Source: Sedimentisphaera salicampi (GTDB taxonomy: Bacteria > Planctomycetota > Phycisphaerae > Sedimentisphaerales > Sedimentisphaeraceae). From it: a stretch of DNA of 64,000 nt. The notes beneath the pieces are model-generated. The model was not told the origin of the DNA. It saw only the letters and a list, made by a program, of their open reading frames with translations, and made no database searches. Both the position numbers and the translations under genes were made by a program. Each line of letters opens with the position of its first letter. The stretch's first letter is position 1. The stretch spans positions 2,590,995 through 2,654,994 of the forward strand of contig NZ_CP021023.1 of NCBI RefSeq assembly GCF_002117005.1, written 5' to 3'. This document shows, one piece after another, positions 46,135 through 53,036 of this stretch.

Positions 46135-46350
46135 TTTTTCTTCTCCTCTATTTGAGTTCAGAATAAAATTTCTTTCCGGCTCCTGAGCATTATAACAAAG
46201 ACTTCAAATTTAGAAAATAAAATGTTACGATACGGCAGTACGGGCGTGAGACATTATTTTTGGGCAAAGCTTTGTGCTCCGTCCCGCCTGCGGTGGACAG
46301 ACTCAGGAGGAAATATATATATTAACCACAGAGTGACTGAGCTAATCAAA

Positions 46351-46533
46351 GAAGTTGGTATTGTTGCAGCGACAGCTTGGATTGGTAATTCTGCCGGCGT
46401 TGCGCTGAAACACTATGGACAGGTAACAGATTCAGAAATGAAAGAAGCAGATAATCGAGACCGCAAAAGGTGGTCTGCAAAAAAGTCTGCACAAATCCGC
46501 TGTAAGCAGTTGCAAGGAAACGCAGGAAGGTAA
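46351..46533 (+). pseudogene. Tyrosine recombinase C-terminal remnant at tRNA-Asn
   Basis: Only the end of the catalytic domain remains: AATAWIGNSAGVALKHYGQVTDSEMKEA, where the HYxxV context carries the catalytic Tyr of phage-type integrases, then tail KKSAQIRCKQLQGNAGR. Upstream of 46340 the frame turns into non-coding sequence with a variant of the 15-bp palindrome (near 46283). 49 bp (46474-46522) recur at 19387-19435 beside tRNA-Leu. Probably the scar of an element integrated at the tRNA 3' end. Confidence 0.75.
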
Positions 46534-46620
46534 AGCGGAAGGTGATATAAACCCTTGCGATTGCAAGACTTTGCGGCAAAAAAACAGGGCTTTGCATTTC
46601 CCTGCAAAACCCTATAAAGC

Positions 46621-46709
46621 TCCTCGAGTAGGACTCGATTTATCCTTCGGCCAATCTTCGACCTACAACCTAGCGGTTAATCCGCCTGCGGCGGACTCGC
46701 TCTACCGAT
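46621..46709 (-). pseudogene. Broken tRNA-Asn copy (3' half, palindrome and D-arm piece)
   Basis: On the minus strand: D-arm piece ATCGGTAGAGCGAG, then the palindrome at 46681-46695 in place of CGGCTG, then anticodon-loop TTAA, variable and T-arm sequence and acceptor TCGAGGA. The T loop is split by a 22-bp insert (TTTATCC..CTTCG on the plus strand) flanked by TCGA. The first 13 nt of the tRNA are replaced by the GIY-YIG gene. Cannot make a tRNA. Confidence 0.8.
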
Positions 46710-46982
46710 CTTGGAATCAAGCCATTCTCTTCCGATTCCGGTTTTTAGCCACGCTTCTCGTTTCATAGACTCTGATCTTGTGCTGTATTTTTCGCAGTGC
46801 ACCAGCTCCCATCTGCCGGCATATTTTGAAGTGAATCTATGCTTGTTTATGCTGGCTCCGTTATGCTCTGCGAGCCTTCGGCCAAGGTTTTCTGTCTGAC
46901 CGATATATCGCTTGCCAGCTTCTTTATTTATGATTACATACACCCAAAACAATTCCAAGATTCCATTGAAAAGGCACTGCAA
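46677..46982 (-). CDS. GIY-YIG family endonuclease whose C-terminus is encoded by tRNA-Asn sequence and a palindrome
   Basis: 101 residues. GIY-YIG signature WVYVIINKEAGKRYIGQT, conserved Arg in LGRRLAEHN and the family end KREAWLKTGIGREWL. The TTG start has GGAG in front. The final residues SKIGRASPPQAD are read from the tRNA-Asn D-arm (ATCGGTAGAGCGAG) and the 15-bp palindrome, with TAA supplied by the tRNA anticodon loop. Small GIY-YIG proteins of this type have no firm function; a homing-like nuclease role is inferred from the location. Confidence 0.85.
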   Translation of the reverse strand: MQCLFNGILELFWVYVIINKEAGKRYIGQTENLGRRLAEHNGASINKHRFTSKYAGRWELVHCEKYSTRSESMKREAWLKTGIGREWLDSKIGRASPPQAD

Positions 46983-47062
46983 GATTTCTCCGGCAGCGCA
47001 TTATTAATCTGTTCAATGATACTTAAGATTTTCTTTCAACCTAGCGGTTGAGTATTATAAAA

Positions 47063-47135
47063 CTCCTCGAGTAGGACTCGAACCTACAACCTAGCGGTTA
47101 ACAGCCGCTCGCTCTACCGATTGAGCTATCGAGGA
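47063..47135 (-). tRNA. tRNA-Asn (GTT), intact
   Basis: Acceptor TCCTCGA/TCGAGGA with discriminator G. D arm AGCTCAATCGGTAGAGC. Anticodon stem GCGGC/CCGCT-type pairing around TGTTAAC, giving GTT. T loop TTCGAGT. It is the only whole copy at this locus. Confidence 0.94.
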
Positions 47136-47165
47136 ATAAACGCTATTCAGCGTGCAATAGACGGG

Positions 47166-47195
47166 ATATACTACTAATTTGACGTTCGGTGTCAA
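47166..47195 (-). promoter_or_regulatory. tRNA-Asn promoter
   Basis: Minus-strand TTGACA at 47190-47195 and GTATAT at 47166-47171 (18-bp spacer), about 30 bp before the tRNA. The same -35 box recurs at 47413-47418 and 47636-47641 in the next tandem units. Confidence 0.6.
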
Positions 47196-47299
47196 GCGGA
47201 GAAATCAAAAAAGAACATAAAAACTGTGAAATTTTCTGCCCTTCCCGCAGGACACATAAAATTGAGCTGGAATTTCAAGCAGCGTAATCTTGGCACTGC

Positions 47300-47358
47300 A
47301 CAACCCAGTGGTTAATCCGCCTGCGGCGGACTCGCTCTACCGATTGAGCTATCGAGGA
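47300..47358 (-). pseudogene. tRNA-Asn half-gene, tandem copy 2
   Basis: 28 nt of 5' tRNA (47331-47358), palindrome (47316-47330), then TTAACCACTGGGTTGT, a degenerate anticodon-arm stub. It keeps its own upstream promoter. Confidence 0.8.
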
Positions 47359-47522
47359 ATAAACGCTATTCAGCGTGCAATAGACGGGATATACTACTAA
47401 TTTGGCGTTCGGTGTCAAGCGGAGAAATCAAAAAAGAACATAAAAACTGTGAAATTTTCTGCCCTTCCCGCAGGACACATAAAATTGAGCTGGAATTTCA
47501 AGCAGCGTAATCGTGGCACTGC

Positions 47523-47581
47523 ACAACCCAGCGGTTAATCCGCCTGCGGCGGACTCGCTCTACCGATTGAGCTATCGAGGA
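47523..47581 (-). pseudogene. tRNA-Asn half-gene, tandem copy 3
   Basis: Same structure as the copy at 47300: 28 nt of 5' tRNA (47554-47581), palindrome (47539-47553), then stub TTAACCGCTGGGTTGT. Its promoter is also kept. Confidence 0.8.
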
Positions 47582-47756
47582 ATAAACGCTATTCAGCGTG
47601 CAATAGACGGGATATACTACTAATTTGACGTTCGGTGTCAAGCGGAGAAATCAAAAAAGAACATAAAAACTGTGAAATTTTCTGCCCTTCCCGCAGGACA
47701 CATAAAATTGAGCTGGAATTTCAAGCAGCGTAATCTTGGCACTCCACAGCCCAGCG

Positions 47757-47930
47757 GTTAATCCGCCTGCGGCGGACAGGTTCTGCCGGTGTTGAAATCA
47801 AGCCATTCTCTTCCGATTCCGGTTTTCAGCCAAGCTTCACGTTTCATAGCTTCTGATCTTGTGCTGTACTGTTCGCAGTGCACCAGCTCCCATCTGCCGG
47901 CATTTTCTGCCTCGCAGCTTCTGTTATTTG
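47757..47930 (-). pseudogene. 5'-truncated GIY-YIG gene
   Basis: The minus strand reads NAGRWELVHCEQYSTRSEAM then KREAWLKTGIGREWLDFNTGRTCPPQAD and stops, matching the C-terminal half of the gene at 46677. The GIY-YIG catalytic half is missing; homology ends beside the sigma-like gene. It too ends in the palindrome (PPQAD, TAA), but the residues before it (FNTGRTC) do not come from tRNA-Asn. Confidence 0.85.
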
Positions 47931-47937
47931 CATCTGT

Positions 47938-49596
47938 TTATTTCAGGAGTTTGTCGAACATATCGACAGAGAGGCAGTGGCGGAGTTTCTGCAGGGCCTT
48001 AAGCTCAATCTGCCTTGCTGTTTCCTGGCTCACGCCGAGCTCTTTTCCAATCTGTTTGAGTGTTTTCTTCTTTTTCTTAATCAGCGATGGGTCATCGAGG
48101 CCGTAATGGCTTTTCACCACAAACTGCTCCTTTGGCTCGAGATTTGCCGAGATCACCTCCTCCAAATCCCGTCCGGCCTGCTCAACCACAGGCACCGAGC
48201 TTGCATCCACATTCCGCATATCCGTATGAACTGAATCTTCCAGAGGCAGCGAATCGGACGGAGTGAGCGTTGCGAAGCTTCGCACCACCGCCCAGCCGGC
48301 ATACGTTGAGAATCGAAATCCCTTTGTGTAGTCGTAGCCTTCTATTGCGCGGAATAGTGCCATATTGCCCTCGCTTATCAGCTCTGCGAACGAGATGTGT
48401 TTTCCGATATGCTTTGCAGCAATATTTATTACAACCCTCAGATTAGACTGAAAAACAGCGTGTTTGATTTTCTCTATTTCTTCGAGCCTCTTATGCATTT
48501 TCTGAAGTTTCTTCCCTGAAGGCGAGGAAAGATTCAGCGTTTGTTTTTCCTGCTGATAAAGCTTTTTCAAACAGTTGTACTTAATAAACATCTCGCGTTC
48601 CTGATCACGGGTTGCCGGCCGGATCTTATTTATCCTGCTGATATACCGGTTTACATCATCAGGCGATGTGCTTACCTCAACCGGAGATGGAAGAAATATT
48701 TTTTTCTCTTCAATCTTTCTCATCTGAGCAGGCTTTTGGAAATCAGGCGAATCAACAAAACCAAGCTCCACCGCTTCTATCCTCTTTGCCTTGCTGCGAT
48801 TGATTGCTCTGTACACGCTCGAGCGGCTGCAGCCGAACATTTTGCAGATATCGCAAACGCTTTTCCCGCCCGCATAAAGCTCGCTGATCTGCTTCTGTAT
48901 TTTGCTGTTCACCTTGCCTTTTCTCGGGAGGTAAATATCGCTTTGCTCTTTTTGTTCTGCGTTTTGCAGGGTGCTTCTAACCGTTTCAAAGCTGCGGTTA
49001 GTTTTTTCAGAGATCAGTTTCGCTGCTTTGCTTCTTGTGATATCCGGCCGGCTTTCTTTGAGCTGTTTTGAAAGCTCAAGGATATTCTGCCTGTCTTCCT
49101 CTGAAAGCCTATTAAAGCTTGATGCCTTCTTAATTATTTCCGGATTCTGCTTCCTGAAATGCTCTAAGGACTGCTGAGTTACAGCGAGTTTTTTTATGCC
49201 GTCTTCAAATACGAGGTATCTAACTATAAGCCCGAAGCTTCTCCATCGCCGGATAGTCTTATCACAAACCCCAAGCTCCTCTGCGAGCGAGGCAATAGAA
49301 TATGCAGGCTGATTGAGCATTGCTGCAGGCTGGCTTACTGTTTTGCTGAGCTCAAGGATAAACAGCCTCACATCGGCCTGAACGCTGCTGCCTTCTAGGA
49401 TCTCGATTTCGCCCTCGCCGCCAGGGTTGTATCCTGTGATTTTGCTGCATACAAATTCATAAGGATACTGCTTGCTAGTCTCGAGGAGGCAGTATAGCGA
49501 TTCGGCCTTCTCGAGCATTTCCAGCTTAACCCTTATCGGAGAGAAGCGTACATCAGCCAGCAGCCCTTTGATTTTGTCTGTTCTGAAATCAGCCAT
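47938..49596 (-). CDS. Sigma-70 family factor fused to N-terminal helix-turn-helix domains
   Basis: 552 residues. A MerR/excisionase-like HTH lies near 100-125 (SIASLAEELGVCDKTIRRWRSFG) and a resolvase-like HTH near 242-265 (GKSVCDICKMFGCSRSSVYRAIN). Sigma region 2 is near 377-442 (FAELISEGNMALFRAIEGYDYTKGFRFSTYAGWAV) and region 4 near 482-540 (LEPKEQFVVKSHYGL, TLKQIGKELGVSQETARQIE). Regions 1.1 and 3 are not evident. Such long HTH-sigma hybrids are rare; I know of no assigned role. No strong ribosome site (CGGAAAA). It adjoins the tRNA-Asn array but shows no other mobile signs. Confidence 0.83.
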   Translation of the reverse strand: MADFRTDKIKGLLADVRFSPIRVKLEMLEKAESLYCLLETSKQYPYEFVCSKITGYNPGGEGEIEILEGSSVQADVRLFILELSKTVSQPAAMLNQPAYSIASLAEELGVCDKTIRRWRSFGLIVRYLVFEDGIKKLAVTQQSLEHFRKQNPEIIKKASSFNRLSEEDRQNILELSKQLKESRPDITRSKAAKLISEKTNRSFETVRSTLQNAEQKEQSDIYLPRKGKVNSKIQKQISELYAGGKSVCDICKMFGCSRSSVYRAINRSKAKRIEAVELGFVDSPDFQKPAQMRKIEEKKIFLPSPVEVSTSPDDVNRYISRINKIRPATRDQEREMFIKYNCLKKLYQQEKQTLNLSSPSGKKLQKMHKRLEEIEKIKHAVFQSNLRVVINIAAKHIGKHISFAELISEGNMALFRAIEGYDYTKGFRFSTYAGWAVVRSFATLTPSDSLPLEDSVHTDMRNVDASSVPVVEQAGRDLEEVISANLEPKEQFVVKSHYGLDDPSLIKKKKKTLKQIGKELGVSQETARQIELKALQKLRHCLSVDMFDKLLK

Positions 49597-52511: not shown

Positions 52512-53036
52512 GGGCTATTCCTGCTTTTTTTGAGGGTTATTTTAGCTGAAATAATTTTAGCAATTACGGTTTTGCTGTCCAATATAATAGCAGAATCAAA
52601 GATGTGCGACAATATTTTTTGGGCAAAATGCAAATCATCATTCTGCAATGCTTTGCAGAATTTACTGCTGTCTATTTATTGAGCCTGTCCGCCGCAGGCG
52701 GAGAACAAACGGATAGATTCGCGGCTCGTGGCAAAATCATTAGACAAAAATTAGTGCTGATTAGCGGCTGAAAATTTCTCTCCGCCTTTTCCTTATTTAA
52801 TATTTATCCCGTGAATCCTTGCCCCGCAGCCAAAGCGGTTCGGGGCTGTAAATCCCGTCAAAAAAATCTCCTCTCTCCGCCGCAGGCGGGCAGATTCGGC
52901 TTTAAAAAGCTTTGCAAAAAAGTATTGTCTCACACGATTTATTAAATGAGCTGTTTTTTGTTGGAATTTTTCGCAGTTTATACGTATAATCCGCTTGTTA
53001 ATGTATTCTTAACGTTTAATAATCTGCAGGAGTTAT
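52512..53036. other. Intergenic region with two palindromes
   Basis: Between ftsI (minus) and the lptD-like gene (plus). No gene seen. The 15-bp palindrome TCCGCCGCAGGCGGA occurs at 52688-52702, and a near copy (last base G) at 52876-52890. A CAGGAG ribosome site lies before 53037. Confidence 0.6.

Follow-up and report, generated by a model that had tools for sequence, protein, structure and literature searches.

A single-domain GIY-YIG nuclease gene and short palindromes at broken tRNA genes: what looks like an undescribed tRNA-splitting selfish element

Introduction

Several described systems act on or lie in tRNA genes. Phage T6 encodes SegB, a GIY-YIG homing endonuclease that cleaves tRNA genes and without which tRNA-Tyr is not amplified in tandem (PMC13096335). 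Group I introns accompanied by homing endonucleases lie in tRNA anticodon loops, and tRNA-integrating elements split a tRNA gene, of which one intact copy is rebuilt from sequence borne by the element. The palindromes of the REP/REPIN type (repetitive extragenic palindromes) that go with RAYT are short and dispersed and lie at times inside other palindromes (PMC3733652). Here we describe a locus in Sedimentisphaera salicampi, within the 64,000 nucleotides (nt) of contig NZ_CP021023.1 from 2,590,995 to 2,654,994 (the window), at which a tRNA-Asn gene, a GIY-YIG nuclease gene and copies of a 15-bp palindrome are combined in what looks like an undescribed tRNA-splitting selfish element. We give a probability of roughly 60% to the reading that the locus is that of a minimal mobile element, homing-like and specialised for tRNA genes, the sole gene of which encodes a single-domain GIY-YIG nuclease. 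An earlier sequence-only reading of this DNA knew of no described system of this structure, and no description of such an element was found in the open-licence literature searched.

Results

Anatomy of the tRNA-Asn locus

The window genome is complete in one contig (3.19 Mb) and contains a single full-length match to tRNA-Asn, the functional tRNA-Asn(GTT) copy at 47062..47136 (ARAGORN; Rfam RF00005 tRNA, 72.6 bits), which, like all features of the locus other than the strandless palindromes, lies on the minus strand. It stands at the end of three 223-bp tandem units (47108..47777; Tandem Repeats Finder (TRF), period 223, 98% matches) that are mutually 97-99% identical by direct-repeat comparison and TRF. 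Read in the direction of the tRNA, the locus begins with a truncated GIY-YIG gene, a palindrome, tRNA nt 35-47, an upstream region and tRNA nt 1-28, and continues with palindrome, nt 35-47, upstream region and nt 1-28, and then with palindrome, nt 35-47, upstream region and the intact tRNA. The 3' part that follows comprises the intact tRNA, a whole GIY-YIG gene, tRNA nt 16-28, a palindrome, nt 35-55, ~22 foreign nt and nt 56-73. The palindrome, TCCGCCGCAGGCGGA (15 bp), takes exactly the place of CGGCTG, which is nt 29-34 of tRNA-Asn and comprises three anticodon-stem nucleotides, C32, U33 and, from the anticodon itself, its first base (G34).

The upstream region of the intact gene, consisting of promoter and leader (47137..47302; direct repeat D1, TRF and sequence), recurs in each 223-bp unit. 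Beyond it, the first upstream unit has a stub of tRNA nt 35-47 lying 3' of the palindrome (47303..47315; sequence and stub comparison), the palindrome TCCGCCTGCGGCGGA in place of nt 29-34 (47316..47330; sequence and copy search) and a half tRNA-Asn, nt 1-28, that is the same as in the intact gene (47331..47359; blast, 0 mismatches). In the second unit the corresponding stub (nt 35-47; sequence), the second palindrome copy of the array (sequence search) and the second half tRNA-Asn (nt 1-28; blast and row comparison) occupy 47526..47538, 47539..47553 and 47554..47582. The outermost stub, again nt 35-47, lies at 47749..47761 and adjoins the palindrome (47762..47776; sequence search) that closes the truncated GIY-YIG gene, of which the 3' part only is present (~47767..47922; hidden Markov model E=7e-16; repeat D2). 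On the opposite side of the intact tRNA lies the whole nuclease open reading frame (ORF; 46677..46982), which is UPF0213/SLX1-like (PF01541 E=4e-14; PDB relatives 1zg2, 1ywl and SLX1) and is closed by a further palindrome (46681..46695; sequence search) preceded by a stub of tRNA nt 16-28 (46696..46709; blast). A displaced tRNA-Asn 3' half (46620..46680; blast and sequence) follows, in which the T-arm is split by the ~22 foreign nt. The sequence-only reading described the array correctly, with its three units, the intact tRNA at their end, two units limited to the upstream region and nt 1-28 before the palindrome, and both GIY-YIG genes terminating in the palindrome. It missed the extra broken tRNA-Asn copy at 46620-46709, 3' of the whole GIY-YIG gene, as well as the palindrome copies elsewhere in the genome and the recurrence in many other genomes.

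The C-terminus of the window nuclease ORF, IGRASPPQAD, is encoded by tRNA nt 16-28 and the palindrome. A conserved protein tail (GRASPPQAD) was considered and rejected, as the frame is not kept everywhere (the ORFs of L081 and L127 end at the TAG within GGTAG), and the conservation is therefore at the DNA level. In the sister species G001 a worn stub only (GCAGGCGGATTAACCGC) lies 5' of a normal tRNA-Asn, and it is a remnant of the same outermost stub (sequence of the window and of L086). Since the stub is shared, the oldest insertion is older than the species split and the 223-bp amplification is recent.

Recurrence of the junction in other genomes

In a DNA search with the locus among 59 relatives, other families of the order also proved to have parts of this arrangement at tRNA-Asn. 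When only the tRNA flanks were fixed (GGTAGAGCGAG N9-39 TTAACCGC) and 161 genomes of the order were searched with the reversed pattern as control, 15 genomes, belonging to 14 genera, gave 19 junctions between them, and the control gave none. All 19 inserts start with TCC, end with GGA and are palindromic or nearly so, and they represent about a dozen distinct sequences, including TCCGCCNNNGGCGGA types, TCCCGATGTCCATCGGGA, TCCCGACCTGTCGGGA, TCCGGCAGCCGAAGGCTGACGGA and others. A looser junction pattern extended the count to 17 genomes and 15 genera. In a scan of ~85,000 species, 65 stretches matched. True tRNA-Asn junctions account for 49 of these and come exclusively from Planctomycetota and Chloroflexota, with palindromes of the TCCTTC....GAAGGA or TCCGCC types in the latter phylum. 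The other 16 stretches are unrelated chance matches from other phyla, with inserts that are non-palindromic or lack tRNA context. The sequence-only reading had made a search for palindrome-tRNA junctions in other genomes the measure of its idea, absence elsewhere counting against it, and such junctions were found. Recurrence also bears on whether the locus is a one-off local rearrangement or an assembly artefact, for which tandem repeats of 223 bp are a classical risk. That explanation is refuted by the same junction in independent assemblies of at least 14 genera, the window genome itself being a single 3.19-Mb contig, and it retains virtually no likelihood.

Viral contigs yielded one true tRNA-Asn junction (L275), one chance match and no tRNA-Pro junction. 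L275 is an IMG/VR predicted viral contig of 37.7 kb, the end of which matches the GIY-YIG/palindrome/tRNA-Asn sequence of G025; a predicted prophage may therefore lie next to it. Candidates for a vehicle of the nuclease were sought among phage, plasmid and viral contigs and set aside, the nuclease having no match among phage sequences and one weak match, of 43% identity, among plasmids. A search for other tRNAs with longer palindromes replacing the whole anticodon arm returned one chance match only. ARAGORN labels palindrome-broken tRNA-Asn as tRNA-Cys(gca) (L084 2884-2968 and L206; G025), and such fragments can thus enter databases as false tRNAs.

Two mirror forms of the element

The arrangement occurs in two mirror forms, of which one has the 5' side of the tRNA gene in duplicate and the other the 3' side, with the GIY-YIG gene lying between the copies in the second. 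Form A lies 5' of the intact tRNA and consists of promoter/leader and tRNA nt 1-28, the palindrome, ~13 nt (35-47), a spacer or GIY-YIG gene, and the intact tRNA, while form B lies 3' of it and consists of the intact tRNA, the GIY-YIG gene, a stub of ~11-14 nt reaching up to nt 28, the palindrome, tRNA nt 35-73 and the native flank. Among 22 rows of form A, nt 1-28 have 0-2 mismatches to the intact gene in 20, and 21 rows are random over nt 48-73; only G110 differs, keeping a full-length tRNA with the palindrome in its anticodon arm. Of 20 form B rows, 10 have an intact stretch of nt 35-73 (0-1 mismatch), and the left homology stops 0-4 nt short of GGTAGAGC in 17; the search pattern itself demanded GGTAGAGC and GGATTAACC, including part of the conserved sequence, and the shortest possible arms are therefore not measured free of bias. 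Spacer sequences show no conservation. In L159, from Chloroflexota, the form A spacer contains the GIY-YIG gene, and a duplication of the upstream region can be seen.

Form A units are single or tandem and measure 80 bp (L145), 85 bp (L176), 93 bp (G058), 107 bp (G087) or 223 bp (window), a range of unit lengths, differing by genome, that supports the tandem amplification proposed by the sequence-only reading. The identity of the junction in both forms could also be explained by a small circle that moves by site-specific or short-homology recombination, with host recombination in place of nuclease-driven homing, the (11 nt)-palindrome-(13 nt) junction being its attachment site and forms A and B being crossovers to the left or right of the palindrome. 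Head-to-tail tandem units in G059 (360 bp), L152 and L123 would fit such a circle, but they also arise from plain unequal exchange, and a 360-bp unit has no room for an integrase; we regard this explanation as improbable.

The nuclease family and a replicate at tRNA-Pro

The nuclease consists of a single GIY-YIG domain (window ORF of 101 aa; PF01541 4e-14), the closest solved relatives of which are UPF0213 members (1zg2, 1.4e-14; 1ywl, 3.7e-14), with SLX1 next. The conserved residues V3, Y4, Y15, G17, R25, H29 and E65 are invariant. The search alignment was built from element nucleases, so that the ranking of search matches is not independent evidence. In a tree of 52 GIY-YIG domains (82 columns), in which further GIY-YIG genes from the order served as outgroups, one clade holds 24 of the 26 tRNA-Asn/palindrome nucleases from both phyla (support 87/81), and its sister group consists of three nucleases that adjoin tRNA-Pro (support 91/89), the deep forks being weak because the sequences are short.

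The arrangement at tRNA-Pro, reached via these sister nucleases, is an independent replicate. Here TCCCTNAGGGA, or a close variant of it, TCCCTTGGGGA, stands in place of the anticodon arm of tRNA-Pro(CGG), and the plan is a 5' tRNA part, the palindrome, ~13 nt of tRNA, the GIY-YIG gene, the promoter region and the intact tRNA-Pro. It occurs with the nuclease in eight genomes (G011, G026, G045, G085, G086, G088, G091 and G134) and without a GIY-YIG gene in a ninth (G053). The palindrome is mildly enriched in these genomes, with 78 copies against 14 for the reversed pattern. The sequence-only proposal of a tRNA-targeting selfish element, made up of a nuclease and a palindromic end, is supported by the presence of the GIY-YIG/palindrome/tRNA association in 17 of the 161 genomes, in Chloroflexota and at tRNA-Pro.

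Other GIY-YIG genes were seen near RNA genes. A different GIY-YIG lineage lies 3' of tRNA-Asn in G010 (L079 ~2500-2800) and G071 (L240 ~1575-2000), followed by a tRNA 3'-end copy and no palindrome, and is a second, independent nuclease at the same tRNA. The GIY-YIG ORFs of G033 and G002 (L221 and L224, ~1501-1790) continue directly into sequence that reads as 23S rRNA, which suggests that they encode putative rRNA-intron homing endonucleases.

Presence and absence among close relatives

The GIY-YIG gene is variably present at its presumed target in the pairs G059/G052, G132/G133, G110/G108 and G080/G081. G059 carries two 360-bp units 3' of its tRNA, in which the GIY-YIG gene is the only gene and there is no room for an integrase, and its relative G052, with 92% identity upstream through the tRNA, carries none. 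G132 has one element and G133 has none. The native flank and intact tRNA of G108 align to the palindrome-broken copy of G110, and the native gene of G110 is therefore the broken one, its intact tRNA and GIY-YIG gene being extra. No alignment was obtained between the flanks of G087 and G018.

Half-tRNA transcripts and introns

The promoters kept in the window units raise the question of whether half-tRNAs capped by a palindrome work as small RNAs or as regulatory leaders. An example of the latter would be a 5' leader on the GIY-YIG mRNA at tRNA-Pro, where the native tRNA promoter stands 5' of the half-tRNA and the GIY-YIG gene. The near identity of nt 1-28 across form A is in keeping with such a role, but part of that conserved sequence was demanded by the search pattern, the spacers vary, and half-tRNA units give no better folds than shuffled sequence (z = -0.47 and 0.08). 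The shuffle test thus lends no support to a structured RNA. The units of most other genomes are too small to hold a promoter, and nearly every upstream copy is random on the tRNA 3' side past nt 47. A function for half-tRNA transcripts, the existence of which the sequence-only reading had held possible, is accordingly unsupported and highly improbable.

A group I intron was ruled out for the window, where RF00028 has no Rfam match at E up to 1. Such introns were seen elsewhere in tRNA-Asn, after U35, in G010 (L079 3102-3760) and G041 (L080 3073-3722) with 80-84 bits; they hold an ORF of ~137 aa that is HNH-like by eye (CxxC...HH...CxxCH) and has no Pfam match.

Palindromes as dispersed families

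The window palindrome has 71 exact copies in its genome, mostly inside mosaic dispersed repeats, and the pattern TCCGCCNNNGGCGGA (any 3-nt loop) has 178 copies there (G000), against ~0.13 expected per strand, with 47 in G025 and 33 in G014. The palindrome TCCCGAYGNNCATCGGGA, absent from these three genomes, has ~8-31 copies per strand in G132 and G161-G163. The palindromes at tRNA sites vary by genome, and where fully counted each is usually a member of the dispersed family of its own genome. The mosaic repeats are of low complexity (GGCAGAGCTGCAAG-palindrome-TTGCTCGTGGCAAAATCATTAG..., e.g., at 52688-52702 and 46283-46300 of the window) and are spread unevenly along the chromosome, with few before 0.99 Mb. 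The nuclease as maker of the palindrome was ruled out, as palindromes are common in genomes without such a GIY-YIG gene; most likely, the palindrome is drawn from a host pool. Of the sequence-only reading, a tRNA-targeting selfish element and its tandem amplification are thus supported, whereas a palindrome specific to the nuclease and functional half-tRNA transcripts are not.

Additional TCC...GGA palindromes were observed in the T-loop of displaced tRNA fragments (L137, L181, L182, L129, L174, L157 and L123) and in one D-loop (L211 1770-1820), where they sometimes take the place of ~6 nt as well. This hints at a preference of the palindromes for the hairpin loops of tRNA copies that are already broken.

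A dispersed origin of the palindromes opens a different explanation, that of decay in a redundant copy. Tandem duplication of the tRNA, by ordinary recombination or through a nearby nuclease, would be followed by entry of host palindromes into the redundant copy, with a preference for tRNA hairpin loops and no direct involvement of the nuclease in the insertion. The dispersal of palindromes irrespective of the GIY-YIG gene, their additional presence in T-loops of displaced 3' halves and in the L211 D-loop, and the known occurrence of REP-like repeats inside other palindromes (PMC3733652) are all consistent with this, and palindromes could have entered the broken copies only once these were redundant. 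Random insertion and decay do not predict that the same anticodon nucleotides are struck every time and that the 3' side ends ~13 nt on in almost all upstream copies; nor do they sit easily with the grouping of the linked nucleases in a single clade whose sister clade is found at tRNA-Pro. We consider decay unlikely.

Discussion

An element at a fixed tRNA site, with this anatomy, recurring across genomes, present in one relative and absent from another, bound to one nuclease clade and repeated at a second tRNA, may have arisen as follows. The nuclease would cut the DNA of the tRNA gene in the anticodon arm, and repair would join the element via short tRNA arms of ~11-13 nt on each side of the cut. 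A palindrome from the dispersed pool of the host would then seal the broken copy and remove the cut site, and one side of the gene would be duplicated, preserving a working tRNA because the gene is essential. In the window, unequal recombination would have turned an old footprint common to the sister species into three 223-bp units, and on the opposite side of the intact tRNA lies a form B element. Both the cleavage and the route of palindrome insertion in this scheme are inferred.

Several observations weigh against the homing-like element. The target in the intact tRNA is unchanged beside the element (the anticodon arm of G132 is identical to that of G133), where continued cutting would be expected, and the occupied allele, in which an intact tRNA adjoins the element, does not lack an intact target as in homing. 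No separate DNA-recognition domain is visible beyond the 90-100 aa of the GIY-YIG domain, unlike in classical GIY-YIG homing enzymes. Form A units stand without a nearby nuclease in several genomes, and palindromes are plentiful without such a gene, as in G037 with 59 copies and no nuclease match. In G058 and G035 the palindrome at the tRNA site has almost no other genomic copies, and the entry of palindromes into copies that were already redundant, as set out above, counts on the same side.

If the homing-like element is nevertheless real, an essential single-copy tRNA gene is the repeated target of a selfish element of 0.36 kb, and its hosts function only since every insertion leaves one intact copy, which makes it a naturally occurring counterpart to cleave-and-rescue gene drives. 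UPF0213-type GIY-YIG proteins would also gain a plausible role and a connection to short dispersed palindromes, and the element accounts for tRNA fragments that annotation tools overlook or misname (e.g., as tRNA-Cys). A wider proposal, quite possible if short of probable, is that of a distinct class of minimal mobile element in which a GIY-YIG gene and a host-derived palindrome split essential tRNA genes in the anticodon arm, cap the broken half with a hairpin and carry or create a rescue tRNA, a natural cleave-and-rescue that would switch its target tRNA (Asn, Pro) while spreading between phyla.

Comparison with known systems

The element does not fit any of three known kinds: the group I intron, the tagged REP and the integrase element. 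The group I introns of tRNA anticodon loops share its target region, but there is no intron RNA in the window and the tRNA is restored by an intact duplicate rather than by splicing. The REP palindromes resemble those found here in being short and dispersed, while the junction palindromes end in TCC...GGA without a GTAG or CGTC tag, their flanks vary and no RAYT was seen at the locus. The tRNA-integrating elements likewise split a tRNA and leave one intact copy, but the element here, of ~0.36 kb, has no integrase, and its crossover region lies in the anticodon arm and includes a palindrome. UPF0213/YhbQ-like proteins and SLX1 are the closest solved relatives by sequence, and their catalytic V-Y, Y-x-G, R and E positions are invariant in the element nucleases; for UPF0213 members no tRNA-linked palindrome arrangement was found described in the open literature searched, and SLX1, a structure-specific endonuclease, differs in that it works in DNA repair with a partner.

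The free-standing GIY-YIG homing endonucleases of phages T4 and T6, including SegB, are among the closest known systems, in that there too a GIY-YIG gene adjoins tRNA genes. With free-standing homing endonucleases the element shares a catalytic domain and variable presence at its target, yet it departs from them in two usual respects, the intact target and the missing recognition domain. In contrast to SegB, the nuclease here is a single-domain protein of 90-100 aa that is found in bacterial chromosomes at one fixed anticodon-arm site, with palindrome-capped broken tRNA copies and one tRNA isotype per nuclease clade. For the amplification step, SegB is a demonstrated precedent.

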